Positions 3,343 to 64,000 of a stretch of 64,000 bases of DNA are shown piece after piece. Under the pieces are notes generated by a model. That model worked only from the letters and a program-made list of their open reading frames with translations. It did not search any database and was not told where the DNA came from. Origin of the DNA: an uncultured bacterium (GTDB lineage: Bacteria > Patescibacteriota > Saccharimonadia > Saccharimonadales > Saccharimonadaceae); assembly GCA_902761145.1 (NCBI GenBank), contig CACWJA010000002.1:124001-188000 (forward strand), read 5' to 3'. The translations under genes were made by a program, and so were the position numbers. The first letter of the stretch is position 1. Each line of letters begins with the position of its first letter.

Positions 3343-3429
3343 ATGGTTATTATACCACAAAAGATGAACCGTTGAAGATTTTGTGTTGGTTTTTTGCTTA
3401 CGTTGGCGCGGAATATCTACAGAGGCTGA

Positions 3430-3458
3430 TTGACATTTTGTATGAAGTGTGGTATAAT
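3430..3458 (+). promoter_or_regulatory. Promoter of tandem paralogue 1
   Basis: TTGACA at 3430-3435 and TATAAT at 3453-3458 with a 17-nt spacer, in the context AAGTGTGGTATAATTA. About 40 nt of leader follows, then the Shine-Dalgarno sequence AGGAGGG before ATG 3507. Confidence 0.85.
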
Positions 3459-3506
3459 TATAGTGCAGGCTTCGACCTCGTATATTAACTTAGGAGGGAT
3501 CATTTA

Positions 3507-4158: not shown

Positions 4159-4166
4159 ACTAATGA

Positions 4167-4195
4167 TTGACATTTTATACGAAGTGTGGTATAAT
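4167..4195 (+). promoter_or_regulatory. Promoter of tandem paralogue 2
   Basis: TTGACA at 4167-4172 and TATAAT at 4190-4195, 17-nt spacer. The segment from -35 through the leader is nearly a copy of the one before paralogue 1, including the GGTTTCGGCCTTGTAT-like leader and AGGAGGG. Confidence 0.85.
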
Positions 4196-4241
4196 TATAG
4201 GATAGGTTTCGGCCTTGTATTTTTATTTAGGAGGGATTGCC

Positions 4242-6099: not shown

Positions 6100-7248
6100 A
6101 TGATATATTTAGATCACGCGGCGGCGACCCCTGTGTCTGATAAAGCACTCAAGGCGATGGAGCCTTATTTTTCGCGTGATTTTTTTAATCCTAGTGCGGC
6201 ATATTTGCCCGCCAAGAGGGTGGCGGCCGATTATGAGCGAGCAAAGGGTGAAATAGCCCATGCTATAGGCGCAAAAGCCACGGATATAGTTATGACTGGC
6301 GGCGCGACAGAGGCGAATAATCTGGCTTTTACCGCTCTAGACAACCAAATGCGGAGCCTGACTGCGTCTGTCCTATATCTAGAAACTGAACATGATTCCG
6401 TGAGAGCGGTTGCCGAGAAATATAACGGCATGGCTATTCGGGTACTACCAAATGGATTGATAGACTTAGATGATTTGAAGGCAAAGATTACGGATGAAAC
6501 TATGCTAGTCTCTGCTTCTTTGGCTAATAACGAACTAGGCACCATCCAGCCAATGGCAGAAATTAGCGCAATACTAAAAAATATAAAAATAGATAGGCTT
6601 AAACGTGGAATAAAACAGCCGCTGTATCTACACTCCGACGCTTCGCAAGCTTTGAATTTGTTAGATATTAATGTTTCTAGGCTAGGAGTAGACATGCTAA
6701 CCCTGAATGCCGCAAAAGTATACGGGCCGAAAGGCGTGGGGGCACTATATGTGGCGCACGACGTAAAACTATCACCAATCAGCGTGGGTGGCGGCCAAGA
6801 ACTGGGGCTAAGAAGCGGTACCGAGAATGTGCCGGGTGCAATAGGATTCGCTGCAGCTATAAAAGAAGCGAAAGAGCACTTAAACGGCAATCGCAAGAGG
6901 TATGCCAAATGGAAACAAACATTATTAAAAGAACTACGAGATTATGAACTGATTAACAAAAAGCATACATTGGATAATTTCGTGGTCTTATGCTATAGCG
7001 GGATTGATGCGGAAAGATTGATTTATCTATTGGAGGACAGGGAAGTATATGTGGCTACTGGTGCGGCATGTGCGGCTAGCAAGGGCCAGAAATCACACGT
7101 ACTAGCTGCGATAGGACTAAGTGATGCCCAGATAGCTGGGTCGCTAAGACTTACGCTAGGTGAAACCAATGACGAGGAGCAGATACACATGGCGGCACAG
7201 ATCATTAATGAAGTAGTAGACGCCGAGAAAGAGAGAGTGCATGGTTGA
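6100..7248 (+). CDS. iscS: Cysteine desulfurase (IscS/NifS class)
   Basis: PLP-dependent enzyme that takes sulfur from cysteine as a persulfide; next to mnmA it most likely supplies sulfur for tRNA 2-thiouridine. The sequence opens with the family start MIYLDHAAATPVS and has TGGATEANN and the PLP-lysine region NAAKVYGPKG, where the usual His before the Lys is Ala. The catalytic Cys is in TGAACAAS. At 382 residues it is normal length. The TATAAT at 6087-6092 is only 7 nt before ATG and there is no Shine-Dalgarno, so the mRNA is probably leaderless. It overlaps mnmA by 8 nt, which suggests coupled expression. Paralogue choice (IscS, NifS or SufS) is uncertain. Confidence 0.9.
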   Translation: MIYLDHAAATPVSDKALKAMEPYFSRDFFNPSAAYLPAKRVAADYERAKGEIAHAIGAKATDIVMTGGATEANNLAFTALDNQMRSLTASVLYLETEHDSVRAVAEKYNGMAIRVLPNGLIDLDDLKAKITDETMLVSASLANNELGTIQPMAEISAILKNIKIDRLKRGIKQPLYLHSDASQALNLLDINVSRLGVDMLTLNAAKVYGPKGVGALYVAHDVKLSPISVGGGQELGLRSGTENVPGAIGFAAAIKEAKEHLNGNRKRYAKWKQTLLKELRDYELINKKHTLDNFVVLCYSGIDAERLIYLLEDREVYVATGAACAASKGQKSHVLAAIGLSDAQIAGSLRLTLGETNDEEQIHMAAQIINEVVDAEKERVHG

Positions 7249-8443
7249 AAAGGTTTTCGTAGGTATGAGTGGAGGGGTGGATTCCTCTGTGTCGGCTTTG
7301 CTTCTAAAAGAACAGGGCTATGATGTAGTAGGCGTTTATATGAAAAATTGGTCTAAGGATCTACCCGGCATGAAATGTCCGTGGGCAGAAGATCTGGCTG
7401 ACGCTAAGCGCGTAGCAGTAAAACTAGGGATAGATTTTGAGGTGTGGGATTTTGAGGAAGCATACCGAGAAAAAGTAGTAGAGTACATGCTGAAAGAATT
7501 TCGCGCTGGCAACACACCAAACCCGGACATAATGTGCAACCAAGAGATAAAGTTTAAATTATTCTATGAAAAAGCTATGGAACGGAGGGCAGACTATATA
7601 GCTACTGGGCATTATGCACGAGTATTTCGGCAAGAAGGGAGTACAGGCTATCTTCTTGCTCGCGCTGTGGACGAAAACAAAGACCAGACGTATTTTCTCT
7701 ACCGAATATATGATGAGGCGCTGGCACATACAATCTTTCCGATTGGCGAGATGACGAAGCCAGAGGTAAAAAAGCTGGCTGAAGAAGAAGGCCTACATAA
7801 TGCCTACAAAAAAGAGTCGATGGGAGTATGCTTTGTGGGTGAGGTGGGGATGAAGGATTTTTTGAAGGAATATATAGAGATCCTCCCAGGCGAGATTCGT
7901 GAAATTGAGAGCGAAAGGGTGCTAGGATACCACGAAGGCGTAATATTCTATACCATCGGACAGAGACACGGATTGTATCTTACCGGTATAGCAGGCGAGA
8001 TAAATGATGGACTGCCGTATTATGTGGTAAAAAAAGATATCGAAAATAATATCGTGTACGTATCGAAAAATCTAAACAATGAGCATATTTGGACAAAGCG
8101 ATTGGAACTGAAGGATGTCGTCTTGAGGGCGCAGGGCCTGGCATCACTATCCCGCTCGGGGGCGCGTCGCTCGCTCCCGTCGCCACGGGGCTCGCGCGCT
8201 ACACCTCAGTTTGCCAACTTCCGGACCCCCCTTCGCCAGGATAGTAACGCCACTCGCGCCAATAATGGAGATATCTTCGTGCGCCTTCGCCATAGAGCGC
8301 CGCTGATCCCGGCAAAAATGACACTCAGTGAGGATGGTGCCGCCACACTGGAATTCGAGAAAGAGGTAAAGCGTCCGGCGGCGGGGCAGTCGGCCGTGAT
8401 ATACGACGGCGAGATATGTCTGGGCGGTGGGATTATACAGTAA
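7241..8443 (+). CDS. mnmA: tRNA-specific 2-thiouridylase MnmA with an internal insertion
   Basis: Adenylates U34 of Lys, Glu and Gln tRNAs and thiolates it with sulfur from the desulfurase encoded just upstream. The PP-loop motif SGGVDSS is at the N-terminus, with catalytic cysteines in NPDIMCNQEIKF and MGVCFVGE, plus the DQTYFL tRNA-binding region. The C-terminal beta-barrel is split by roughly 40 residues rich in Arg, Ser and Pro (from LSRSGARRSLPSPRG to ATRANN). Reading resumes at GDIFVRLRHRAPL. The insertion coincides with a GC-rich inverted-repeat element at about 8144-8246 and keeps the frame. Total length is 400 residues against about 360-370 usually. Confidence 0.93.
   Translation: MVEKVFVGMSGGVDSSVSALLLKEQGYDVVGVYMKNWSKDLPGMKCPWAEDLADAKRVAVKLGIDFEVWDFEEAYREKVVEYMLKEFRAGNTPNPDIMCNQEIKFKLFYEKAMERRADYIATGHYARVFRQEGSTGYLLARAVDENKDQTYFLYRIYDEALAHTIFPIGEMTKPEVKKLAEEEGLHNAYKKESMGVCFVGEVGMKDFLKEYIEILPGEIREIESERVLGYHEGVIFYTIGQRHGLYLTGIAGEINDGLPYYVVKKDIENNIVYVSKNLNNEHIWTKRLELKDVVLRAQGLASLSRSGARRSLPSPRGSRATPQFANFRTPLRQDSNATRANNGDIFVRLRHRAPLIPAKMTLSEDGAATLEFEKEVKRPAAGQSAVIYDGEICLGGGIIQ
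8144..8246. repeat. GC-rich palindromic element inserted in frame in mnmA
   Basis: Starts with ACTATCC and ends with GGATAGT, a perfect inverted pair extended imperfectly inward by G5/C5-6 blocks. The base composition (CGCGTCGCTCGCTCCCGTCG) is unlike the rest of the gene. It encodes an Arg/Ser/Pro-rich stretch with no counterpart in MnmA proteins. Confidence 0.6.
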
Positions 8444-13715: not shown

Positions 13716-15389
13716 ATGACAACTATCCCTATAGAAGTCATAGTACAGGATGCTGAAACTCCTGTAATACCAACACCTATTCCAGCGGATCCATCTGTTC
13801 CTGGAGAAAATACAAACATCACAGTGCCGGAGACTGGTGTTGGCGCAGTAGATAGTAATAATGGGAATAGTATGTCATCACCTGCTACTATTATAGTAAG
13901 TATAGTAATAGCAGTATTAGCTATATGTACGGTAATAGCGCTATTAATACGTAAATATAACAAACGCAATAAAACCAACATAGAAGCAGGTAACAATACT
14001 AGGCAAGAAACCAGATCTATGGCAGTAACAAGTATTATAGCAGTACTAGCCCTTACGATGCTCCTGGGCCAACTAGTAGTAGCAGGTGCAGTAAGTCCTA
14101 TAGCCACTAATGCTGCTACAGACGATACAGTTAATGATGAATCAGAACTAGACGTAGACAGTAAGATCACCATCATAGCTACTAGGACAGAAGATGAAGA
14201 TACAGTAGTAGCTACAGTGAAGAATACGTCTACTATCACAGTAGACAAACCTTTTGGTTATGAAGTAGCCATATCTATGGCAAATAATAGCACCAACCTA
14301 TATCTAGATGGAGATGAAACAAGCGAATACTACCTATCTCCAGTAGAAGATAGTACACTAGCGGACAATACTTGGGGCTATACTCTAGATGAAGAAGAGT
14401 ATAATGCAGTGCCACTGGTAGATAATCTAGCAGTAATAGCCAAAGGCACTACCCCAGTAGCAGATGAAGATATAAATATCTACTATGGCATAAAAGTAGA
14501 CAAAGATCTCCCAGCTGGTACCTATACTGGTGAACTAGAATACACTTTATCTGATACTGGCTTCCCACTATCCTTGCGCGCTATGAAAGATATGACTACG
14601 GATATTTGCGACTCTGCACCTACACCAGAACCGTTTAAGGCAGATGGTGCCACCATAGAAGATAATGTACCCACCGTAACACTAAAAGATATAAGAGATA
14701 ATAAAGCCTACACAGTAGCAAAACTGGCTGATGGAAAATGTTGGATGACACAAAATCTGGATCTTCAGAAAGAAAACTTAGTAGTAGCATCACTAGATAG
14801 CACTAATACCGACAATCCAGCAGATGGTTTTGAGCTGCCGGATTCGCAGACGAGCAGTGGCGAGAGTTGGGGTATAAATACAGCCCATATCTACGACCTA
14901 GCTGGTGATGGTCAGGATTACTATTATTGTTCTGAATATTACCCGTGGACTGGTGGGTGTGGCGTATATAGTGATGAAAAGATACCAAAAACAGAACTTG
15001 GGGAATTATTACAACTGGTTTGCCGCTACCGCTGGTACCAGTGCTAGTCTTGCTAGCGATACTGCCACTGGATCTATTTGTCCGGCGGGGTGGGAACTGC
15101 CCACTAATGATTATGGGGACCTAGTAGAAGATTATGGCCTAACTAACACTTCTTTTAACGTCCTTAAGATATTCGGTGCTCCAATGAATATTATACGAGC
15201 AGGCCGGTATCGGATTAATGCTACTTTTGGGGTTGGATCTCCGATGCTAGTTTGTGGACATCCATGAATAGCAGTTCTACGCAGACTGTCGGAACCGGTT
15301 TTTATATCTATGAAACTGGGTTGTATCCGAGATCGTCTCATGATAAAACTAGCGGGTTATCGGTTCGATGTTTGGCACAGCAGCCTTGA
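13716..15389 (+). pseudogene. FISUMP-type surface protein with an N-terminal sorting-like segment, two frameshifts
   Basis: Start ATG 13716 follows AGAAAGGAAAAC. Residues about 35-85 look like a sorting signal (VPETG, hydrophobic span, basic RKYNKRNK). A second hydrophobic signal-like segment then follows (VTSIIAVLALTMLLGQLVVAG), a beta-rich region and a Fibrobacter-paralogous (FISUMP) domain (LADGKCWMTQNLDL, SICPAGWELPT, GLSVRCLAQ). The frame breaks at GGGG 15000-15003 (LGELLQ should read LGNYYNWFA) and again at TTTTGGGG near 15226-15233, after which FWGWISDASLW continues to TGA 15389. An intact relative is encoded at 43806-45407. Both breaks are at homopolymers. Confidence 0.72.
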
Positions 15390-15402
15390 AAACAAAGTAG
15401 TA

Positions 15403-15427
15403 TTACGGGCGCCCTCCGCGCCCGTAA
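15403..15427. terminator. Strong terminator-like hairpin
   Basis: ACGGGCG and CGCCCGT pair around CCCTCCG, followed by AATTT. Confidence 0.8.
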
Positions 15428-15448
15428 TTTCGTCTGACCAACTAGATA

Positions 15449-15481
15449 ACCGCCCAAAGGATACATAAAAGGGCGGTTTTT
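15449..15481 (+). terminator. Second terminator hairpin
   Basis: ACCGCCC and GGGCGGT separated by 15 nt, then TTTTT. Confidence 0.75.
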
Positions 15482-15488
15482 GATACAA

Positions 15489-16256
15489 CTACACTTTAGT
15501 GACTGGCTCGCATTTGCCTGGAGCGAGGCTGGCGAGCTGGTAGGGGCCGAACTGAGTACGATGTAGGGCAGTGACACGGTAGCCAAGTGCAGCAAATGTG
15601 CGGCGAATCTGGCGATTGCGACCTTCCGATAGAATTACGGTGAAATATATTCTTTCAGCGGGTCCTGTCGCCACAGATTCCCCCACTGTCCTCGGTATGC
15701 GCCTGCGCGCGGCGGGGGTCCCCCCAGTGGCGCCACCCGCTGACGCTACTACTGTGAATTTTGATGGGCCGTCGTCTAGCATTATGCCGTAGTCGGAAAT
15801 CATTTGCTGGTGGAGCGGCTCAAGCGAGCGGTCTAATTCTACTTCGTAAATCTTTTCTTTGTGAAACTTAGGATGAGTCATTTGGTAGGCAAAATCGCCA
15901 TCGTTGGTGAGGATTATTAAACCAGAGCTATCTTTGTCTAGACGGCCGACAGTTTTCAGCTGGAGGTACTTAGCCGGCAACAAATCGTAGATAGTAGGGG
16001 CACTGCCCTGAGCACGACGTGAGCATACATAGCCCACTGGCTTGTTGAACGCTATATACAAGTAATCCGTATCGAACGGTATTATATTACCATTATACCA
16101 TACTTTACTAGAAAAGTCAACCCTAGCGCCTAGCTGGGCCGTCTGGCCGTCTATCTTTACCTTACCAGCAGAGATAATCTCGTCGGCTTCGCGACGAGAT
16201 AGGCCTAGGCGTTCGGCGAGGAATTTATTGAGCCGGATTGGCTGTGGCTGGCTCAT
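15489..16256 (-). CDS. rluB: RsuA/RluB-family pseudouridine synthase with internal insertion
   Basis: Isomerises specific uridines in rRNA to pseudouridine. An S4 domain comes first (IRLNKFLAERLGLSRREADEII). The catalytic domain has the family motif VGRLDKDSSGLIILTNDG with the catalytic Asp, and GRNRQIRRTFAALGYRV near the end. ATG 16256 is chosen as the start because it gives a normal RsuA/RluB N-terminus; the frame upstream is non-homologous and lies within the response-regulator gene. About 29 residues rich in Gly, Ala and Arg (from ASAGGATGGTPAARRR) interrupt the fold between FTVV and RIYFTVILSEG. They are coded by a GC-rich palindromic element. The start overlaps the response regulator by 32 nt. 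RsuA, RluB, RluE and RluF cannot be told apart here. Confidence 0.85.
   Translation of the reverse strand: MSQPQPIRLNKFLAERLGLSRREADEIISAGKVKIDGQTAQLGARVDFSSKVWYNGNIIPFDTDYLYIAFNKPVGYVCSRRAQGSAPTIYDLLPAKYLQLKTVGRLDKDSSGLIILTNDGDFAYQMTHPKFHKEKIYEVELDRSLEPLHQQMISDYGIMLDDGPSKFTVVASAGGATGGTPAARRRIPRTVGESVATGPAERIYFTVILSEGRNRQIRRTFAALGYRVTALHRTQFGPYQLASLAPGKCEPVTKV
15656..15742. repeat. GC-rich palindromic element inserted in frame in the pseudouridine synthase gene
   Basis: Bounded by the perfect inverted pair CAGCGGGT / ACCCGCTG, with further pairing of CGCCAC and CCCCC blocks. It is 87 bp, exactly 29 codons, far richer in G+C than its surroundings, and interrupts a conserved domain without breaking the frame. 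Confidence 0.6.
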
Positions 16257-54717: not shown

Positions 54718-56454
54718 ATGAGTGATTCAATAAAAAAGCGTGGGCAAAGATTCTTGAGGAATGTTTTTCGTGTCACTTCACGAGCAAGTGAAGATAGTAA
54801 AGAACACATAAAAGACAATTTGATCGGACGCGTATCGCACATCCATAGTATTCGACTCTTAATTCTAGAGTGGGGGCTGCTGGTGGCTGCATTGATATTG
54901 CTTGCTATTACACAATCTATGTGGTTTATAGAGTCCTACGCGGAAGATGTGTTTGCTAGTGGTGGTAATTACACAGAAGCTACTTTAGGGGAAGTTAATT
55001 CGCTAAATCCGCTGTTTGCTACCACAAATAGTGAACGTATACTAAGTAAACTGTTGTTTGCAACTATTTCTGCGACAGATTACTCTGGACATCCAGGTAT
55101 AGGTCTAGCCGAATCAATACTGCCAAGCGAAAATGGCAAGGTATGGACTATGCACTTAAGAGAGGGACTAAAGTGGTCCGATGGGCATCCAATAACAAAT
55201 GAGGATGTGATATTTACACTTGATCTAATAAAGAGCCCCGCCGTAAATTCTGTATATGATTCTAGCATTTCAAATGTAGAAATAACAGAAAACGACAATG
55301 GAGACATAGTATTTTCTCTTCCAACAATTTATGCTGATTTTGTTTCTGCACTAAATATACCAGTAGTTCCAAAGCACGAGTTAGAAGACAGCGATCCTAG
55401 AAATTTGATTGAGGACACTTTTTCTAATGCTCCAATTACTTCTGGTGCTTTTAGCTTTAACGCACTACAATCCGTGCCTAGTAGCAACGAAAAGGTGTAT
55501 TATTTGTCGGCAAATCCATATTATTATAAGGGTGAGCCCTTGCTGAGTAGTTTTGCTGTGCATACTTATAGTGATAAGGAGTCGATCATTGGAGCATTAA
55601 ACAGCGGGACAGTAACGGCGACAGCAGAGCTGTCCGGAGCGGATAGTTCCAAGATAACAGCTGGGCAGTATCAGCAAAAAGATTCTAGCATTAGTTCTGG
55701 AGCATATATATTTTTCAATACTTCCAGCTCATCTTTAAAGAAATCTGAGTTTCGCGCGGCGATCCGCCAGGGTATAGATATCGAAAAAATTCGTGAAGCC
55801 GCACCTGATACTACAGATTTAGATTATCCACTTTTGGCATCCCAGATCGAGTTGACAGCTTACCCAGAGATCCCAGGCAAGGATGTAGAATCGGCAAAAA
55901 CAAAAATATCTGAGTTATCCGGTGACGATTCCGTCGGCTTGGAGATTGCCACTGTTAATTCCAGGTATTTACCCGAAGTTGCAGATGCATTAAAAGCTGA
56001 ACTAGAATCCTTGGGAGTACAAGCACACGTATCGATATATGAGGAAAACCAAGATTTTATTAATAACATCATTAGCAAGCGTAGCTATGACATATTGTTA
56101 TACGAAATAGAGCTCGGTGCCGATCCAGACCTGCTGCCTTATTACCACTCATCCCAGACATCTGGAGCAGGCCTGAATTTATCTAATTATCGCAATGCAT
56201 TAGTGGATGATCTACTGTTGGGAGCAAGAGACACTCTAGATGAGGCGCTGCGAGCTAAGAAGTATGAAGCATTCCTGGAATACTGGGTGAACGACGTTCC
56301 AGCCATTGGAATCTACCAGCCATCTCTTACTTATTATTATAACCGCAATGTCCGAACGTTCAGTAATAACGTACGGTTAGTCACGCCGCTGGATAGATTT
56401 ACTGATATAACAAGCTGGGCAACAGTAAAAGAGACCAAGAATAAAACCCCGTAA
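54718..56454 (+). CDS. Peptide/oligopeptide ABC transporter substrate-binding protein (SBP family 5), membrane-anchored
   Basis: A basic N-terminus and one transmembrane helix (IRLLILEWGLLVAALILLAIT) anchor a DppA/OppA-type domain outside. Family signatures are YTEATLGEVNSLNPLFAT, MHLREGLKWSDGHPITNEDVIFTLDLIK and FRAAIRQGIDIEKI, plus the C-terminal SYDILLYEIELGADPDLLPYYHSSQ. Anchoring by a helix instead of a lipid fits CPR bacteria. The permease genes are not next to it. Peptide uptake would suit a host-dependent organism. Confidence 0.9.
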   Translation: MSDSIKKRGQRFLRNVFRVTSRASEDSKEHIKDNLIGRVSHIHSIRLLILEWGLLVAALILLAITQSMWFIESYAEDVFASGGNYTEATLGEVNSLNPLFATTNSERILSKLLFATISATDYSGHPGIGLAESILPSENGKVWTMHLREGLKWSDGHPITNEDVIFTLDLIKSPAVNSVYDSSISNVEITENDNGDIVFSLPTIYADFVSALNIPVVPKHELEDSDPRNLIEDTFSNAPITSGAFSFNALQSVPSSNEKVYYLSANPYYYKGEPLLSSFAVHTYSDKESIIGALNSGTVTATAELSGADSSKITAGQYQQKDSSISSGAYIFFNTSSSSLKKSEFRAAIRQGIDIEKIREAAPDTTDLDYPLLASQIELTAYPEIPGKDVESAKTKISELSGDDSVGLEIATVNSRYLPEVADALKAELESLGVQAHVSIYEENQDFINNIISKRSYDILLYEIELGADPDLLPYYHSSQTSGAGLNLSNYRNALVDDLLLGARDTLDEALRAKKYEAFLEYWVNDVPAIGIYQPSLTYYYNRNVRTFSNNVRLVTPLDRFTDITSWATVKETKNKTP

Positions 56455-56489
56455 TTGGTTAACATTATAAAATAAGCTTGACTTTTATA

Positions 56490-56609
56490 CTAATCTGTGA
56501 TCTTCTCGATAATGGCTGGGCTTAAATTTTTAGTTTCAGAAGTTTTACCAATAGTTATCGCCAATTCGTTCTTTAATAGATTAGCTAGATTATATTTATT
56601 AAACCTCAC
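56490..56609 (-). pseudogene. AbiEii-type toxin gene remnant (N-terminal 39 codons)
   Basis: From a GTG overlapping the antitoxin stop, the frame reads NLANLLKNELAITIGKTS and LSPAIIEKITD then TAG. AbiEii toxins (nucleotidyltransferase fold) begin with a helix of this kind and a motif like LSPxxIEKDYWVT. The match is short, so this is inference from both sequence and position. Confidence 0.45.
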
Positions 56610-56916
56610 AAATCTTCTTTATTACTTCGTAAATCCAATTCGTAGTAGGCTTTGCTTCGATTAGTAGCTTCTCTTTTTCTGCGGGCGAAGTTTTTTCGGC
56701 TAATTGGTTAATAATATCTTTCGAAATATGTTCAGGACCTAAAGCCTTGATAGCTTGAATGACAAGCATCGTTTTTCTCGACATGCCGTTTAATTCTCGG
56801 TCTACGCGATGGATAAAACTAATGGAACGATTGCCGACTTGATAACTTTTTGTGTCGCCACTACTAAGATATTCCCACTTTGCCGGAACTTGCATAGAAA
56901 AACCGAGTAAACTCAT
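56599..56916 (-). pseudogene. AbiEi/DUF6088-type antitoxin remnant (C-terminal part, 105 aa)
   Basis: Reads LGFSMQVPAKWEYLSSGDTKSYQVGNRSI, RVDRELNGMSRKTMLVIQAIKALGPEHI and the closing EKEKLLIEAKPTTNWIYEVIKKI. These fit the C-terminal half of AbiEi-like antitoxins of type IV toxin-antitoxin loci. The N-terminal winged-helix part is missing. AAGGAG before ATG 56916 might still allow translation. It overlaps the toxin remnant as AbiE pairs do. Confidence 0.55.
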
Positions 56917-57107
56917 ATTTTTCTCCTTAAATCCATTAAGCCACATGTCAGGAAAATTGGGTAGTTTTCATGACAAAATATCAACAAATACGCTACGAAC
57001 TTTGATTATGAAAAACCTTGGGCCAAGAATAGCATGGTGTGGACGTAAATGCTAAATTATGGTATAATAAAAGAAGTACATTAACATGGCCGAAAGGGGG
57101 AAATTCT

Positions 57108-58292
57108 ATGATTAGACTATTGAAGCCGGCAATCGAGCGAAGATACGATGCCGCGGAAAACGGCATAGGAACACGGAAAAGGGCGGCTGAAGATATCTGC
57201 CGTTTCCTCGAAGCAAATCCGAGAGTCGCCTACGATATGCCACTCGAACGCGAATGCTATTATAGCGCCTGCAAAAATCTGCTTAGGGATAGAGATTCTG
57301 AAAGAATCCTGTTATATCTCCCATTAAGATTTCTCGAAGATGCTCCAGAAACGTTCAAGAAAGCATATCGCGATGCATGGTACAGGCTTCTCAACACAAG
57401 AGATGTACGTGAAAACTTCCATACCGGCGACTGCTTCGAACTCGATGCTAGGCCGCGCGGCGGACTTGAGCGCGTAGTAAAATGCGTTCACCTCACGCCA
57501 TGGTTGCTCAAGTATGGTTACATTAATGAGCGACAAATCCTGAGGATCCTGAGAGAAAATAGCGACGATGAAGTTTTGCTCCAAAGTTTTAAAGACACCT
57601 GGAAATACATTCGTGTGAATAAAATCCTGGGGAGTGAAGATTTATACCAGCTTACTTCAAAAACAGCTCATTTGCCCGTCAGAAAGAAACCAGAACCGCT
57701 CTATGTTTCAAAAAAGCGATTAGAGTGGCTCAATGAGCGCAACAAACCAGCAGAGCTTTTAACGCCCTCGGCTAAGCTTGAGGGACCGTTCTCAGATAAT
57801 ATACCAGCAATTGAGGCTCAGCTTGAAGAAATTGCGGCACGACTAAAACCGTCAGAAATCGTATTGGTCGGTGGTTCGCAACTTAAAGGTTACGGGACTA
57901 CAAACTCCGATTTGGATGTTTGGAGTTATAACAAACTACTATCCAGTATTGCGTCCCAGCCCGGAAATCCGCATACTGTCCATATTTGTTTCAACACAAT
58001 ATGGCTTGGCGGGAAAGATGTAAACATAGAAGAATTGGAACGTTTCTCTGACTTATTATCTGGTAATTATACCGAATATGCAAAAATCGCCACTAAACTC
58101 CACAGGCGCCAAGCAATTGAGCGCCTAGAGAGCGATTTGCTCCAATACAGACTGTTGCATAAAGGTTTCTCCAGGTTTACTGGCATAGACGAGTTTTATA
58201 TTCCGCCGGAGATGGATGGTGATTGCCCGTTCTATGTCGATGAATACCGTCGAATCGCAACCATGCTTTATGCAAAATACGTTTGGCTTTAA
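57108..58292 (+). CDS. Nucleotidyltransferase-fold protein with long helical N-terminus (394 aa)
   Basis: ATG 57108 lies 8 nt after GAAAGGGGG; TATAAT near 57063 is the -10. Residues 1-235 are helical and unassigned (Arg-rich, RERECYYSACKNLLRDRDSER-like). Around residues 250-268 is a Pol-beta/MNT-type nucleotidyltransferase motif (VLVGGSQLKGYGTTNSDLDVW: GGS plus SDLDV). A third acidic residue is likely in KDVNIEELE. Such enzymes transfer nucleotides to proteins, RNA or small molecules. It faces the GC-rich operon and shares a terminator with it. Linkage to that system is only suggested. Confidence 0.72.
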   Translation: MIRLLKPAIERRYDAAENGIGTRKRAAEDICRFLEANPRVAYDMPLERECYYSACKNLLRDRDSERILLYLPLRFLEDAPETFKKAYRDAWYRLLNTRDVRENFHTGDCFELDARPRGGLERVVKCVHLTPWLLKYGYINERQILRILRENSDDEVLLQSFKDTWKYIRVNKILGSEDLYQLTSKTAHLPVRKKPEPLYVSKKRLEWLNERNKPAELLTPSAKLEGPFSDNIPAIEAQLEEIAARLKPSEIVLVGGSQLKGYGTTNSDLDVWSYNKLLSSIASQPGNPHTVHICFNTIWLGGKDVNIEELERFSDLLSGNYTEYAKIATKLHRRQAIERLESDLLQYRLLHKGFSRFTGIDEFYIPPEMDGDCPFYVDEYRRIATMLYAKYVWL

Positions 58293-58300
58293 GGTCATGA

Positions 58301-58331
58301 AAAAGGCCCCCGAAAAGGGGGCCTAATTTTA
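58301..58331. terminator. Bidirectional terminator
   Basis: GGCCCCC-GAAAA-GGGGGCC flanked by A5 and TAATTTT, between convergent genes. Confidence 0.9.
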
Positions 58332-58347
58332 TAGGTGCGTTGATTTC

Positions 58348-59541
58348 TTACAGGACACGCTTGCCGGTCAGACCGGTCATGCCGGTGGCATCACCGCCGC
58401 CCAGCTCGTTCCAGTTGATCTGAGTACCCAGCTGCCACAGCGCAACGAAGTAGTTGACCTCCACATCGGAAGTAACCGTGTCGTGCTTGGCGAACGCCAG
58501 AACGTACTTGACCAGATTCTGCTCCAGACGGATGTAGTTGCTGGAAACGCTCGCGCCGATCTTCTTCAGCATCATCTCGCGGTTCTTCACGCCAATCATG
58601 GACGGCAGGCGGGTATCTTCCAGAGTATTGCGGATAACGTTCGCGTCGTAGGCCATAGCGGCCGCAACCTGAACGCCAGTACCACGGAAAATGCGGTTGA
58701 TGGAATCGACCAGCGTGTCGCCGGCGTCATGCAACTGAGCCGTGTCGGGCGGAGTAATCATACTCATACCCGCGGCACCACCGCTGAAACCGCCGCCGAT
58801 AGCCGCGATCAGCATAGAGGGGTCAGAGAAGCTTGCGCGCCAGGTCTGATACCAGCCGTCCAGCGTACGATAGCTTTCGGCGATTGCCGGCCACAGAGTG
58901 TTGCGGATACGACTCAGGAACTCCTTACGGCGTCCTTCCGTGATAAAAGTGCCGTCCAGACCATCAATCGCGGCGAAGATGTCGCCATAGGCACGACGCG
59001 TCAGAGACTTACGCAGAGCGTAGAAGGTCGGGTCGACCTGTTCTTCGGTCTCATCAGCATACTTCTCCATTTCCTTGGAGAGAGCGTCGGGAACATTGTA
59101 GAGTCCAGCACGGTCAGCCAGAGCCGCACGAATAGCGGCGATGTAGGACGATTCGTCCACCTTTAAGATACCGCCGGTCTTCAGGGCATTCAGCCAGGAT
59201 TCGTCGGTCGGGATGGACGGAAGCAGAGCCTCGAACTGGCTCTGAATCGCACGCGTTTCCGCGGCGGCCACAGCCGGAGCGGCGGCAGGCTTTGCAGCGG
59301 CCTTCAGCTCGCTCAAGAGCTTGCGGGCCTTTGCCAGCTTCATGCCGGCGCCGGTCAGATCAGCAACTTCCAGAGAAGTCAGATCATCGATATCTTCAAC
59401 GCCGAGATCATTCACGACTTTGTCGATCGTAGCTTCATCGGCGCCGTATTCGGCGAGCTTGGTGCGCACTTCGCTTGCGACAGGAGCCGCAGCAGGTTCG
59501 GTTTCAGCCTCGGGAACAACTTTCTTGATTTCTTCACTCAT
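58348..59541 (-). CDS. Unknown protein with HhH/SAM-like N-terminal domain (397 aa), last gene of the GC-rich operon
   Basis: An acidic and Ala/Pro-rich start leads to a small helical domain, residues about 25-80 (LAEYGADEATIDKVVNDLGVEDIDDLTSLEVADLTGAG...). It resembles an HhH or SAM fold by its helix-Gly-helix spacing. An Ala/Pro linker follows, then a helical region about 100-300 and a Gly-rich segment (AAIGGGFSGGAAGMSM). The C-terminus ends GGGDATGMTGLTGKRVL. No enzyme motif seen. GGAGGAAAAACCC precedes ATG. GC content is clearly higher than the chromosome around it. Probably a structural or adaptor component. Confidence 0.75.
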   Translation of the reverse strand: MSEEIKKVVPEAETEPAAAPVASEVRTKLAEYGADEATIDKVVNDLGVEDIDDLTSLEVADLTGAGMKLAKARKLLSELKAAAKPAAAPAVAAAETRAIQSQFEALLPSIPTDESWLNALKTGGILKVDESSYIAAIRAALADRAGLYNVPDALSKEMEKYADETEEQVDPTFYALRKSLTRRAYGDIFAAIDGLDGTFITEGRRKEFLSRIRNTLWPAIAESYRTLDGWYQTWRASFSDPSMLIAAIGGGFSGGAAGMSMITPPDTAQLHDAGDTLVDSINRIFRGTGVQVAAAMAYDANVIRNTLEDTRLPSMIGVKNREMMLKKIGASVSSNYIRLEQNLVKYVLAFAKHDTVTSDVEVNYFVALWQLGTQINWNELGGGDATGMTGLTGKRVL

Positions 59542-59555
59542 GGGTTTTTCCTCCT

Positions 59556-60875
59556 TTAATTTTTATTCGAGCTGACTTTGTCTAGCTCGGTTGGCCCAAT
59601 TGAGAGTAATTTAAGCGGAACTTTTAAGAACCCTTCGAGAGTATTACCGACGAATTCGAAAAGTTCCTGCTTATGGATAGGTTTCTTGATGGAATATTCA
59701 ATTGTGTTAGGCTTAGCCTTCTTGAGAAAATCAACATACGATTCATTGGTCGCTGGTGCATTTTTATAATTGACGCAAAGCGGCCAAATACGATCGCACG
59801 CCAAAATCTGGTCAAACCAGGTAAGGCAAAGCCCGTCAAATGGAGTATCACTACTCATGTTAAGAGCATATCGCAAAAGATTCAAATCAAGTGCTCCGGC
59901 ACGGATAATGCCTTGCCAGCGATTTTCATCCTTGTGACTGCCCGGGAGCATCCGTGCCGTGAACTCCGGATCATAAGTCGGCATTGGGCCGGCTCCATGA
60001 CGGATTTCATAGGCACGATGGATGGCGTAATTGATTATTTCACCGTCATACCCAGCTGCTCTCAACATCTCCATAGTGAACTTTGGGAGAGTTCTGATCG
60101 CGCTTACGTGGGGCTTTAACCCTGTCTCTGCGTCGGTCAGAACTCCATGCGAACATTCGACGACAGCTACACCATCACCCTTTAGAACCTCGCTCAAGCT
60201 TTCTAAACGAAGCTTCTTGCCTACGTCTTCGAATAAATCGAGGCAATACGGCAGGAATCCGTCGTCATAAAGCAAATCAAGATTCTCGGCGATTAGCTCA
60301 GCGTCACCAGGTAAACCATCTTCTTGAGAGATTCTGGCATACCTTTCTCTGTAATAATCGAGCTGTTTTTGGAGTTTAATGCGGACAACCTCACGGTTCC
60401 GAAGCTCAGAGGCCCGAATCGTTGCTTCTTTGCCCAAAGCATTATGCATACGATAGGCTTGTCCAACACCAGTTCCAATCGTGCCGCGCGGATTATTCCT
60501 AAGCAGAAGCTCCTCAAGTTGAGAAGAAATCCGATGAAAAGGCGTAGCACAAATACAGGACGGGTCGACACTTAAAAGCGTGAATGGGTCATAGATTCCG
60601 AGCCGCTTTAAGGCTTCCGATTCGTTGCCGAGCCCAACTGGCGAAATTACCATTTGCTCGGAAAGAAAAGTTGGTACCCCCTCAAACGTTCCGCAACCCC
60701 ATTGTGAGAAATTGAAGCTTTCTCCGTAGGAAGTGCGTACGCCATGAGAGCCTTGTGCGCCACCGCGCTTAATGATGACTGAAGCGTCAAAATTGCGCGA
60801 GAGTGCGTGTACTACGCCGCCCTTGCCTCCATCACCCGGACCGAGGTCAGTAACGACATAAATTTTCTCAAGCAT
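59556..60875 (-). CDS. Divergent adenylosuccinate-synthetase-like enzyme (439 aa)
   Basis: ATG 60875 is set by AGGAGGTG 6 nt upstream. The fold is PurA: residues 7-22 VVTDLGPGDGGKGGVV correspond to the GTP loop GDEGKGK, keeping Asp15 and Lys18 but not Glu. H44 (GAQGSHGV) replaces the NAGHT His. GTIGTGVGQAYRMH matches GTTGRGIGPAY, RHGAGPMPT matches the GPFPTE region, and RAGALDLNLLRYALN matches RCGWLDLVxLRYA. PurA joins aspartate to IMP. Here the altered loops and the operon with kinase-like and vWA genes suggest a different substrate, as in DNA-base or phage PurZ-type relatives. De novo purine genes are not nearby. Confidence 0.82.
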   Translation of the reverse strand: MLEKIYVVTDLGPGDGGKGGVVHALSRNFDASVIIKRGGAQGSHGVRTSYGESFNFSQWGCGTFEGVPTFLSEQMVISPVGLGNESEALKRLGIYDPFTLLSVDPSCICATPFHRISSQLEELLLRNNPRGTIGTGVGQAYRMHNALGKEATIRASELRNREVVRIKLQKQLDYYRERYARISQEDGLPGDAELIAENLDLLYDDGFLPYCLDLFEDVGKKLRLESLSEVLKGDGVAVVECSHGVLTDAETGLKPHVSAIRTLPKFTMEMLRAAGYDGEIINYAIHRAYEIRHGAGPMPTYDPEFTARMLPGSHKDENRWQGIIRAGALDLNLLRYALNMSSDTPFDGLCLTWFDQILACDRIWPLCVNYKNAPATNESYVDFLKKAKPNTIEYSIKKPIHKQELFEFVGNTLEGFLKVPLKLLSIGPTELDKVSSNKN

Positions 60876-60941
60876 AACACACCTCCTAGAGTCTGTAAAA
60901 ACCAAGTTGTTAACAGATCTTGATTGCTGGAGGAGCCGAAC

Positions 60942-60967
60942 GAAAAGAAAAACAAGTTTTTCTTTTC
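60942..60967. other. Perfect 12-bp inverted repeat inside the GC-rich operon
   Basis: GAAAAGAAAAAC-AA-GTTTTTCTTTTC lies in the 115-nt gap between the vWA and adenylosuccinate-synthetase-like genes. It may be an mRNA hairpin or a weak terminator modulating the two downstream genes. Confidence 0.6.
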
Positions 60968-60990
60968 TGAGGCGACGCTCAGCATTCTAC

Positions 60991-62076
60991 TTACAGATAC
61001 TCAATACGATCCGGAGATTCCACGGACTCATCGTCACCAGAGGCTTCTCCCGGCTGAATCGGCCAGGTATCACCCTTATTGGCGAAGACGTCGCCCGCTT
61101 TGGGAACCGGATGCGGCAACGCATGACGAAGTTTCGCCTGCGCGCCGATGTCGATGCTGGAAAGCTGAGCAATCAGCTCAGGACTTGCATGGGCGCCACC
61201 CAGATGTTGCTTGAGGCCAGTAACGTCCATCGTCCCCTCGGTCAAACCGATGATGGCAGAAATGACTGCCGGCAGCTGACGCGTGGAATCGATCTTGATC
61301 ACCGACTTTTCGCCGCAGAGATCACGCCAAAAATCAGCGGTGTCGTGTGATTTGACGACCAAGATAAACTGGTGCGACTTCTTCTTCAGCTCTTCGATCA
61401 TCTTCTTCATCGTGGGAACTTTTCTCATGTTTTTCAGCTCGTTGTTAAAGACTTCCTTGCCGAAAATGCGCTTGATATCCTCAAGATTAAGCCGGTCGTG
61501 ACAGATGGCGTCGGTTACGATGAAGTGATAGCCTTTAAGGCCGATACGATTGGTGTATGTGTCGGTCAGATAGGCACGAGCGAACATGGCGTACTGCGGG
61601 TCTTCCGGAAAATCTCCGCCGCCGCGCTGAGGCGCCATTTCCTTGAGGTAGTTCACGATCTTGGGCGCTTCCATCTCGAACTGCGGACGGCACATAACAA
61701 AATTGTCACAAACATCGCCGAAGATACCAAGACAAAGCTGCGGATCGTAACCCGGCAGAACTTTCGCCACGGCCTCATAGAGGTCGGGCAGAACTGCCAT
61801 CTCTGTATCGACTTCGCCGCCCATAGAGCCGGTGGTGTCGCAACTGACCTCGATGTCCATCGGACAGCCGAGCGTAGCAATCCACTTCTTCTGATGAGGG
61901 TTCAGGCGAATCTTCGAAAACCGCATGGGGTTCACCGCGGGATCGACGATCTCGCTGAGGTGTCCGGTGTCACGAGCGCGCTGTTCTGCCTTCTTGGTCA
62001 CACCACTGTCATGCGTTACGCCATAATCACGGCGTGCTGTGCGGTAGCTTTCTACCGAAAAAGTTTCTCGTCCCAT
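60991..62076 (-). CDS. von Willebrand factor A domain protein (361 aa)
   Basis: After about 70 N-terminal residues the vWA domain begins (MDIEVSCDTTGSMGGEVDTEM) with an intact metal-binding DxTGS motif near residue 80. GYHFIVTDAICHDRL probably supplies the later MIDAS Asp. The C-terminal roughly 90 residues are Pro/Gly-rich. No signal peptide or membrane span, so cytosolic. vWA proteins act as metal-dependent assembly platforms. In TerY-P-type conflict modules a vWA protein is encoded with a kinase, the pairing seen here. AAAGGAGG lies in the end of the upstream kinase-like gene, 4 nt away: translational coupling. Confidence 0.85.
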   Translation of the reverse strand: MGRETFSVESYRTARRDYGVTHDSGVTKKAEQRARDTGHLSEIVDPAVNPMRFSKIRLNPHQKKWIATLGCPMDIEVSCDTTGSMGGEVDTEMAVLPDLYEAVAKVLPGYDPQLCLGIFGDVCDNFVMCRPQFEMEAPKIVNYLKEMAPQRGGGDFPEDPQYAMFARAYLTDTYTNRIGLKGYHFIVTDAICHDRLNLEDIKRIFGKEVFNNELKNMRKVPTMKKMIEELKKKSHQFILVVKSHDTADFWRDLCGEKSVIKIDSTRQLPAVISAIIGLTEGTMDVTGLKQHLGGAHASPELIAQLSSIDIGAQAKLRHALPHPVPKAGDVFANKGDTWPIQPGEASGDDESVESPDRIEYL

Positions 62077-62079
62077 CTT

Positions 62080-62886
62080 CTAATCCTCCTTTATAGTTTT
62101 CCAAATGATGGTACTACGATCGCGATAAGTAAAAGGGTGGTACTGGATACCCCAAAGCCTTTCAACAAGGCGATAAAGGTCTCCGTGTGCTTCCTCAAAC
62201 GAATCGCAACCAAATTCCGAGAAATCCTTGAGCAGTTCAAGATATTCCTGCTCAGCGGGATCATCTCTGACAACAACCCAGTCGAGGATAAACTTTGAGA
62301 TGGCCTTAACAAAGTCATAAGCCACCACATCAGCCATATCCCCAGAGAAGTTGTAGTAGATCAAACGATGTCTTTCCGGTCCAATGAGATAATCATCGGG
62401 CGAGAAAATCGGGTATCTGACAATAGGATTGTCTCCATCAGCGGCTGACAGCTCGAAAAAGCTGTAGAACTTAAAGAAACGCCCCAGAATCCAGATACTG
62501 GTACGGGTGTCGATTTCGGCTTCAGCGTGAAGCTTCGTCAGAGGGATTAACTTGCTGAGGTCGACATCGGGTGTCGCGAAGACATTGATACGACGATCTC
62601 CCTGGGTAGATTCCATGAACGAGGACAACAGGTTCGCGAACAGCCAATCATAGTGGGAGTTGCTTCCGCCCTGGTCCGCCTCAAACTTCGCCACCTGTTC
62701 TTCGAAAGAGCGCAGAATATTGAATTTGCCGGCCTCCCGTGCGAGGATGTCGCCATCTTCAAATGTCTTCGCTACCTTCAAGATTACCGGTTGCTCGTCA
62801 TCCATCGTGCCAAGGTAGATACGGAACTTCGGGGCTTCGCCAATGCGAGACCCCACTTCGATATTCCTGACTCTCAATCTAATCAC
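62080..62886 (-). CDS. Protein-kinase-like fold, N-lobe recognisable, catalytic loop not found (268 aa)
   Basis: From GTG 62886 the sequence has a Gly-rich loop (EVGSRIGEAPKFRIYLG, residues 10-26), a VAIK-like Lys37 in PVILKVAKTF and a helix-C Glu51 in LAREAGKFNIL. The remaining 200 residues are helical. I do not find HRD or DFG motifs, only PERHRLIYYNFSGDMADVVAYD where the catalytic segment might lie. It may be a pseudokinase or a diverged small-molecule kinase. First gene of the operon, behind a TTGACT/TAAATT promoter with about 60 nt leader. The GTG start is tentative. Confidence 0.65.
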   Translation of the reverse strand: MIRLRVRNIEVGSRIGEAPKFRIYLGTMDDEQPVILKVAKTFEDGDILAREAGKFNILRSFEEQVAKFEADQGGSNSHYDWLFANLLSSFMESTQGDRRINVFATPDVDLSKLIPLTKLHAEAEIDTRTSIWILGRFFKFYSFFELSAADGDNPIVRYPIFSPDDYLIGPERHRLIYYNFSGDMADVVAYDFVKAISKFILDWVVVRDDPAEQEYLELLKDFSEFGCDSFEEAHGDLYRLVERLWGIQYHPFTYRDRSTIIWKTIKED

Positions 62887-62949
62887 TTCCTTTCCATAGT
62901 AGAATCAAGACATTAAATAACTATGCCCCGCGTACGGCGCATTATGCAT

Positions 62950-62978
62950 AATTTAGCATATTTAAGAGAAAAAGTCAA
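62950..62978 (-). promoter_or_regulatory. Promoter of the GC-rich operon
   Basis: On the minus strand TTGACT (62978-62973), 17-nt spacer, TGCTAAATT with -10 TAAATT at 62955-62950. Confidence 0.7.
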
Positions 62979-63019
62979 GCGTCTGACCGTTTCTGCCGCC
63001 AAAAACGCAAAAATCTAGT

Positions 63020-63105
63020 GGGACGTGGTATACTAGAATCGACTTCGAGTTAGAGATACTCTCGAAGCCCAAGTAATGCGGCAGTTGAAAAATTGCGCGT
63101 TTTTT
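63020..63105 (+). ncRNA. Leader or small-RNA candidate
   Basis: GTGGTATACT (-10) is followed by the hairpin CTTCGAG-TTAGAGATA-CTCTCGAAG and then GCAGTT-GAAA-AATTGC-GCG-T7, which looks like a terminator. It could be an attenuated leader for the gene at 63238 or a short RNA. The rest of the gap 62887-63237 shows nothing else. Confidence 0.4.
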
Positions 63106-63237
63106 TGTTTGCACGCATAAATACTAATTGCGGAGCGTTTATGTCACATCTAAGCTCGTAAACTCTATGAGTTAAGCAAGTAGTTTTAGACGCACTCTAT
63201 AAAACGTTAGACAATCTAAATTTTACAAAGAGAAACA

Positions 63238-63627
63238 ATGCGAAAGATCCAGAACAGCTTGACGTATTACATTGATGTCCGTCAAAACGAGCTTATTGAA
63301 GAAAAACTCCGCGTTAATGCTGCTATCAAAGCCAAGAAACGCCGTCAGGACAAATTAACCCAAGCTTTTATAGACCTCGGCAAAGACGCGCCAAGAGAAG
63401 CGAAACAGATGATAAACGAGCAGCTTGGGGAATGCCGGAACGATATAGCGATTTTGCAAACCGAGCGCGATGAAATTAACGCTAAGATCTTCGATCCAGA
63501 CCAGGTTCGCGAAATTATGGATGAGCTTACGAACCAGTTAGATTCCATCGGTGAAAAGATGGAATCTGCCGATTCTCGGCAAAAAAGACCCGTTGGCCAG
63601 AAATATGCTTACGAACTTAGAAATTAA
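63238..63627 (+). CDS. Coiled-coil protein resembling the C-terminal part of a large serine recombinase (129 aa)
   Basis: Nearly all helical and charged (LIEEKLRVNAAIKAKKRRQDKL, DIAILQTERDEINAKIFDPDQV, MDELTNQLDSIGEKMES). It has the heptad pattern of the coiled coil that follows the zinc ribbon in large serine recombinases. No catalytic domain is present. A weak AAAGAGAAAC precedes ATG. If the resemblance is right, it is a remnant of the element that brought the GC-rich operon. A free-standing coiled-coil protein is the alternative. Confidence 0.45.
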   Translation: MRKIQNSLTYYIDVRQNELIEEKLRVNAAIKAKKRRQDKLTQAFIDLGKDAPREAKQMINEQLGECRNDIAILQTERDEINAKIFDPDQVREIMDELTNQLDSIGEKMESADSRQKRPVGQKYAYELRN

Positions 63628-63983: not shown

Positions 63984-64000
63984 TAAAGCATAAGTTAAAG

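Follow-up and report, generated by a model that had tools for sequence, protein, structure and literature searches.

The closest described relatives of the locus considered here belong to the adenylosuccinate synthetase (AdSS) superfamily, for which two branches, PurA and PurZ, have been distinguished. PurA joins IMP and aspartate into adenylosuccinate, and the parts of its pocket that are altered in the protein described below hold the IMP 5'-phosphate and L-aspartate. One of its residues, R303, touches both the IMP ribose and aspartate, according to the passage of the source drawn on here (PMC8342488). PurZ/PurZ0, the 2-amino-adenylosuccinate synthetase of Z-DNA phages, is a phage-borne paralogue within the same superfamily (PHROG 1211). 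In the relevant passages of a published survey, phage PurZ has serine in place of the PurA aspartate D13 in 147 of 147 sequences, and of 767 homologues 251 are assigned to a group with E. coli PurA and 151 to a group with PurZ (PMC12884076).

Here we analyzed a 64,000-nucleotide stretch of bacterial DNA (hereafter, the window), in which a minus-strand frame running from an ATG at 60875 to a stop at 59556 encodes a protein of 439 aa that contains TDLGPGDGGKGG and KRGGAQGSHGV; AGGAGG lies 6 bases 5' of the ATG. The protein matches PF00709 (E 4.4e-32; 111.8 bits against a Pfam gathering cut-off of 27), which places it in the AdSS superfamily, and its close relatives carry the name Candidatus Saccharibacteria. 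Every match to the NCBIfam PurA equivalog models is far under the cut-off, with the top one at 80.2 versus 402 bits. The loop motifs GDGGKGG and AQGSHGV, from which the original prediction started, are indeed present in this frame. The GDGGKG loop (residues 14-19; 60819..60836, minus strand) includes D15 and K18, which correspond to D13 and K16 of E. coli, and the GAQGSHG loop (residues 39-45; 60741..60761, minus strand) has Q41 for N38 and H44 for H41. Further along, WQG (residues 320-322; 59910..59918, minus strand) stands where the aspartate-binding loop has TTG. The retention of the Asp and His equivalents of D13 and H41, also part of the prediction, holds well beyond this one protein, as D15, K18, and H44 never vary among the 22 sequences that make up alignment A1 or across all 37 rows of what we call the third clade. 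Together with the intact frame, this invariance rules out a chance motif, a pseudogene, or a sequencing accident.

Residues were compared across 15 PurA, 5 PurZ, and 37 third-clade rows, the last comprising 20 of a Patescibacteria group and 17 others, including L013. The numbering is that of E. coli PurA in what we take to be its published form, that is, the frame index minus one, which agrees with the use of Asp13 in the literature. The third clade shares with PurA the fold, D13, K16, and H41, and mostly D333 (34 of 37 rows), but differs in much of the surrounding pocket. N38 is replaced by Gln in 35 of 37 rows, and V273 and T301 by His and Gln, respectively, in every row (H293 and Q321 in the window protein, where T300-T301 reads W320-Q321); T129 remains Thr in just two rows, the window protein having Ile (I133), and K331 is Lys in none (Trp in the window protein). 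The R303-R305 stretch is one residue shorter, with the gap at R305 in one alignment and at R303 in another, so we claim only that one of these two arginines lacks a counterpart; a basic residue occupies R306 in all 37 rows. Loss of the phosphate-binding R143 is alignment-dependent: no Arg appears in the third-clade rows shown in one alignment, in a column so unstable that PurZ has Arg in five of five rows or two of five across alignments. The Patescibacteria group alone shows Gly for E14, A39, and T42, Ser for G40, His for Q224, and Ser for T239 (20 of 20 rows each); Q224 and T239 are kept in all 17 rows outside this group, indicating that part of the nucleotide pocket survives there. The original prediction had noted changed neighbors beside the catalytic residues, and the comparison extends this to more positions than were first listed (N38, T129, V273, T300-T301, R303-R305, and K331); the window protein lacks the substrate residues of PurA at N38, T129, V273, T301, and the R303-R305 stretch.

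The phylogeny agrees with this division. A first maximum-likelihood tree of 47 rows sets the window group apart from PurA and PurZ, and in a second of 50 rows, which adds six PurA rows and four phage or plasmid rows, the third clade comprises 30 rows with support of 100/99 and is found in 100% of 200 bootstrap trees. The 50-row tree omits seven nearly identical Saccharibacteria rows, which the residue counts include, and the fragment L050 was excluded from both trees. A constraint grouping the Patescibacteria rows with PurA is rejected (log-likelihood lowered by 117.7, p-AU 4.3e-8), and so is one grouping them with PurZ (lowered by 96.6, p-AU 1.6e-7). As the tree is unrooted, it shows the separateness of the clade and not the order of branching; in the 50-row tree no single branch sets PurA apart, and L013 is a long basal row (end branch 1.58 in the 47-row tree) whose placement is less sure. 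Alongside PurA, PurZ, and phage relatives, the window protein thus does not fall inside ordinary PurA, the placement against which the original prediction had staked itself.

Members of the third clade are scattered over very small bacteria that depend on hosts, plasmids, and large phages. A protein search of 151 genomes of the family found 14 with a match, 13 of them third-clade by motif and one PurA (L014); a profile search of 294 genomes of the class found 27, namely 23 third-clade and four PurA (L074-L077); and 25 loci on genome contigs comprised 24 of the third clade (L017-L040), among them one Parcubacteria and one Uhrbacteria contig, and one PurA (L041). The motifs used, RHGxGP and [WFYH]QGxx[RK], are both present in the window protein. 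Outside these genomes, 215 annotated phage records match the window protein, 189 of them from Mycobacterium, and so do 56 plasmid records, which are a mixture with true PurA.

The third-clade gene has a characteristic neighborhood. Profile HMMs were run over all fetched loci within 4.5 kb or less of the AdSS-like gene, and in the 24 loci L017-L040 they recovered a gene for a von Willebrand factor A (vWA)-like protein in 23 (not L029), a kinase-like gene in 22 (L034 and L038 stop at a contig end), the family of the window gene at 58348-59541 in 23 (not L037), and that of the gene at 57108-58292 in 22 (it lies farther away in L026, and L029 ends). In L029, positions 401-2566, the kinase-like gene abuts the AdSS-like gene directly where the vWA gene is missing. 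Eighteen loci of other origin, from plasmids, mycobacteriophages, and Vibrio and Rhizobium phages (L048-L050, L081-L089, L098, and L121-L125), all have the vWA gene, and 12 of the 18 have the kinase-like gene, counts to be read with the facts that several of these loci are closely related to one another and that L048-L050 were fetched through the vWA search itself. Neither gene occurs in nine PurA loci (L014, L041, L074-L077, L090, L091, and L095; most with about 1.5 kb of flank) or in another six PurA loci, for which the flanks reach 5 kb. Conversely, the vWA profile matches 8 of 379 genomes of the phylum, and all eight matches adjoin a third-clade gene (the copy in L050 is truncated where the fetched segment stops). 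No vWA gene was found within about 1.5 kb in L013 and L015; the latter (also L078, positions 1519-2571) is a second, shortened third-clade copy in its genome, G089, in which the C-terminal motifs are missing. An IMG/VR-listed contig bears the entire cassette, and L039 has, some 6 kb away from its cassette, another kinase-like gene belonging to the cassette family (14836-15681). The window gene itself adjoins a vWA gene; it very likely belongs to a separate, vWA-associated branch of the AdSS superfamily, which would then have three branches instead of two.

The partner proteins in the window can be described to different depths. The vWA-fold protein (361 aa; 60991..62076, minus strand) gives no Pfam hit and was assigned by its MIDAS-like motif DTTGSMGG, an assignment then backed by an AlphaFold2 model (pLDDT 81.9, pTM 0.85), for which Foldseek against the PDB returns integrin beta I and vWA folds at the top (E 1.8e-6, with modest TM-scores of about 0.4). 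The phage vWA partner corresponds to PHROG 2971, of unassigned function in PHROG, and the phage and plasmid vWA partners align with the window family at a probability of 99.7. Beside it is a pseudokinase-like protein (268 aa; 62080..62886, minus strand), which matches the phage and plasmid kinase-like partners in profile-profile comparison (probability 98.5). The aspartate of HxD is missing in all 27 rows of this family, the partner in phage I3 has a Pkinase match (E 8.7e-9), and five of six rows from outside Patescibacteria have an HPD motif like that of J-domains, with Pfam DnaJ matches under the cut-off. Two further families complete the window cassette. One is a helical protein with a SAM/HhH-like N-terminus (397 aa; 58348..59541, minus strand), seen only in Patescibacteria cassettes, whose AlphaFold2 model (pLDDT 70, pTM 0.58) has no PDB match at E <=0.001. 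The other, encoded convergently (57108..58292, plus strand), carries the nucleotidyltransferase motif GGS..KGY..SDxD; among 21 members the top Polbeta Pfam match has E 3.1e-4, S257, D268, and D270 are invariant, and no conserved third Asp was seen. Sequence-profile searches of the PDB with the four cassette families other than the AdSS-like one gave nothing significant.

In Saccharibacteria, these five genes form a patchy, probably mobile accessory island. The inserted segment begins at 56455 and continues through the window end at 64000 to about 65029 in window numbering (no strand assigned), following a gene for a peptide-binding protein. Five relatives without the cassette, none of which has a PF00709 match, served to delimit it: in four of them the genes that lie beyond the island here come immediately after the peptide-binding-protein gene, an empty site, whereas the fifth (G548) has other small frames there; a sixth genome (G644) carries the cassette at the identical site in reversed orientation. 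The window and the 24 loci together give 238 flanking frames, of which just four families are found in at least three loci, near-identical contigs included, and no convincing pair of flanking or terminal repeats marks the island ends within 56440-63300. Inside the island, 56599-56946 (minus strand) is a fragment resembling the C-terminal half of an AbiEi antitoxin (PADLOC E 5.1e-27), with no AbiEii seen adjoining. Two other features of the window lie far from the island: an mnmA-like frame (7241-8443) with an unusual low-complexity segment some 50 residues long at 8120-8290 and no second copy in the window, and a 74-base repeat, 85% alike (3427-3500 and 4164-4237), upstream of two similar small-protein genes.

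How might such an enzyme act? By analogy with PurA, GTP-Mg would be bound by the conserved Asp, Lys, and His, and the AdSS-like enzyme would activate an oxo group through phosphorylation, after which an amine would displace the phosphate. With pocket parts for the IMP 5'-phosphate and L-aspartate replaced (Gln41, His293, Trp320-Gln321, and one deletion), the acceptor and the donor may be bound differently; the acceptor is probably not IMP held in the PurA fashion, nor the donor aspartate so held. The suggestion of a different substrate in the original prediction is therefore likely to be correct, since a PurA homologue outside PurA has kept its catalytic Asp and His while its acceptor and amino-acid pockets were rebuilt. 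The vWA protein would most likely hold the enzyme or its target, making this nearly constant partner a direct handle on the substrate, and the pseudokinase may be a non-catalytic regulator. In Saccharibacteria, the helical and nucleotidyltransferase-like proteins would join them in an accessory island of conflict or signaling type. We give about even chances to the view that the protein is a GTP-dependent ligase, adding an amine to an oxo group of altered substrates within a mobile conflict- or signal-type cassette.

This view has to be weighed against the known activities of the superfamily. A divergent but ordinary PurA making adenylosuccinate for purine salvage would explain the PF00709 match and the retained catalytic residues, and the window gene is the only PF00709 match in its 0.87 Mb genome assembly, where a PurB-like gene is also present. 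This reading nevertheless has to accommodate a clade outside PurA, a placement within which the AU test rules out, rebuilt IMP and aspartate residues, equivalog scores far below the cut-offs, and a patchy occurrence in 13 of 151 family genomes. Moreover, among eight cassette genomes checked, PurB is absent from the seven other than the window genome and PurH from all eight, which rules out PurB as a general cassette partner (one of eight) and speaks against a general IMP-to-AMP role, to which the window genome may be an exception; PurB is sporadic in the family at large (8 of 101). On balance, we regard an ordinary PurA function as improbable. The PurB-like gene of the source genome (L127, 6898-8406, contig C7) scores 338 against a cut-off of 326 bits, its neighbors look like genes for acetate kinase, GroEL, and aspartyl-tRNA synthetase, and the genome has no match to ordinary PurA or PurH. 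A PurZ-like enzyme acting on dGMP toward 2-aminoadenine, the analogy offered by the original prediction, is highly improbable. It would fit the names of the phage relatives, as RefSeq and PHROG 1211 call third-clade phage proteins 2-aminooxy adenylosuccinate synthetase and lump them with PurZ. The window protein, however, has Asp where PurZ has Ser (five of five rows here, in line with the published survey), PurZ retains N38, V273, and T301, and grouping the two lineages as sisters fails the AU test; this analogy was thereby abandoned. Nor do DatZ, MazZ, or DpoZ (the HD phosphohydrolase, MazG, and DNA polymerase) occur among the seven neighbors scanned with Pfam. Read from sequence, the residues contradict the PurZ-derived names, and for well over 100 phage proteins (the matches from Mycobacterium by themselves number 189 records) they probably denote the wrong enzyme. 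The remaining 365 homologues of the survey, a number obtained by subtraction for sequences unnamed in its passage, may include third-clade phage proteins (PMC12884076).

Two other readings depart further from the enzymes already described. The nearly constant vWA partner, the pseudokinase, and the altered substrate pocket would suit a former ligase that now serves as a GTP-binding switch or scaffold and is assembled by the vWA protein, like conflict complexes containing vWA; we consider this unlikely, given that a scaffold has no need of the Asp, Lys, and His that are invariant throughout the clade. Alternatively, the activated oxo group might sit on a tRNA or DNA base or on a vWA-held protein. 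A seemingly changed phosphate site for free nucleotides, a nearly constant candidate partner for holding the substrate, and the presence of the gene in large phages are consistent with such a modifier, but NUDIX genes, which adjoin the cassette in five of the six plasmid loci with annotation (some of these loci being closely related), point to free nucleotides, and we find it decidedly unlikely.

Extending the ligase reading, we tentatively entertain, as a possibility on the doubtful side, a new nucleotide-modifying system of bacteria, plasmids, and lytic phages, in which a vWA-held and pseudokinase-gated third AdSS would make an amine-purine (or amine-macromolecule) adduct that serves as a signal, as a poison, or for protection when virus and host are in conflict, expanded in Saccharibacteria with nucleotidyltransferase-like and SAM/HhH proteins. 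In Saccharibacteria, the cassette is a candidate mobile accessory system. None of the five cassette proteins of the window matches PADLOC, which, outside the window, matched the cassette proteins scanned only through the seemingly generic kinase domains of the kinase-like ones; any conflict role is thus putative. Among the matches listed in searches of the open-access literature, no paper describes the cassette.

Among known systems, the vWA-MoxR ternary conflict systems (PMC7159879) share with the cassette a vWA protein and inactive kinase domains, as far as the relevant passages of that paper describe them, but no MoxR ATPase was found among the seven window neighbors scanned with Pfam. The word adenylosuccinate is absent from the main texts of that paper and of PMC7824862. 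PurA shares the fold and the catalytic residues, whereas only the third-clade gene travels with a vWA gene. The nearest counterparts are the PurA-like proteins of Bixzunavirus mycobacteriophages (I3 and Tonenili), encoded with a PHROG 3043 kinase and PHROG 2971. Roughly 30% of residues are identical between these proteins and that of the window, their kinase-like partner has a J-domain-like (HPD) N-terminus, and genes of the 58348-59541 and 57108-58292 families were not found beside them. Nevertheless, they too belong to the third clade, and their kinase-like and vWA-like genes lie immediately upstream in an order identical to that of the window.
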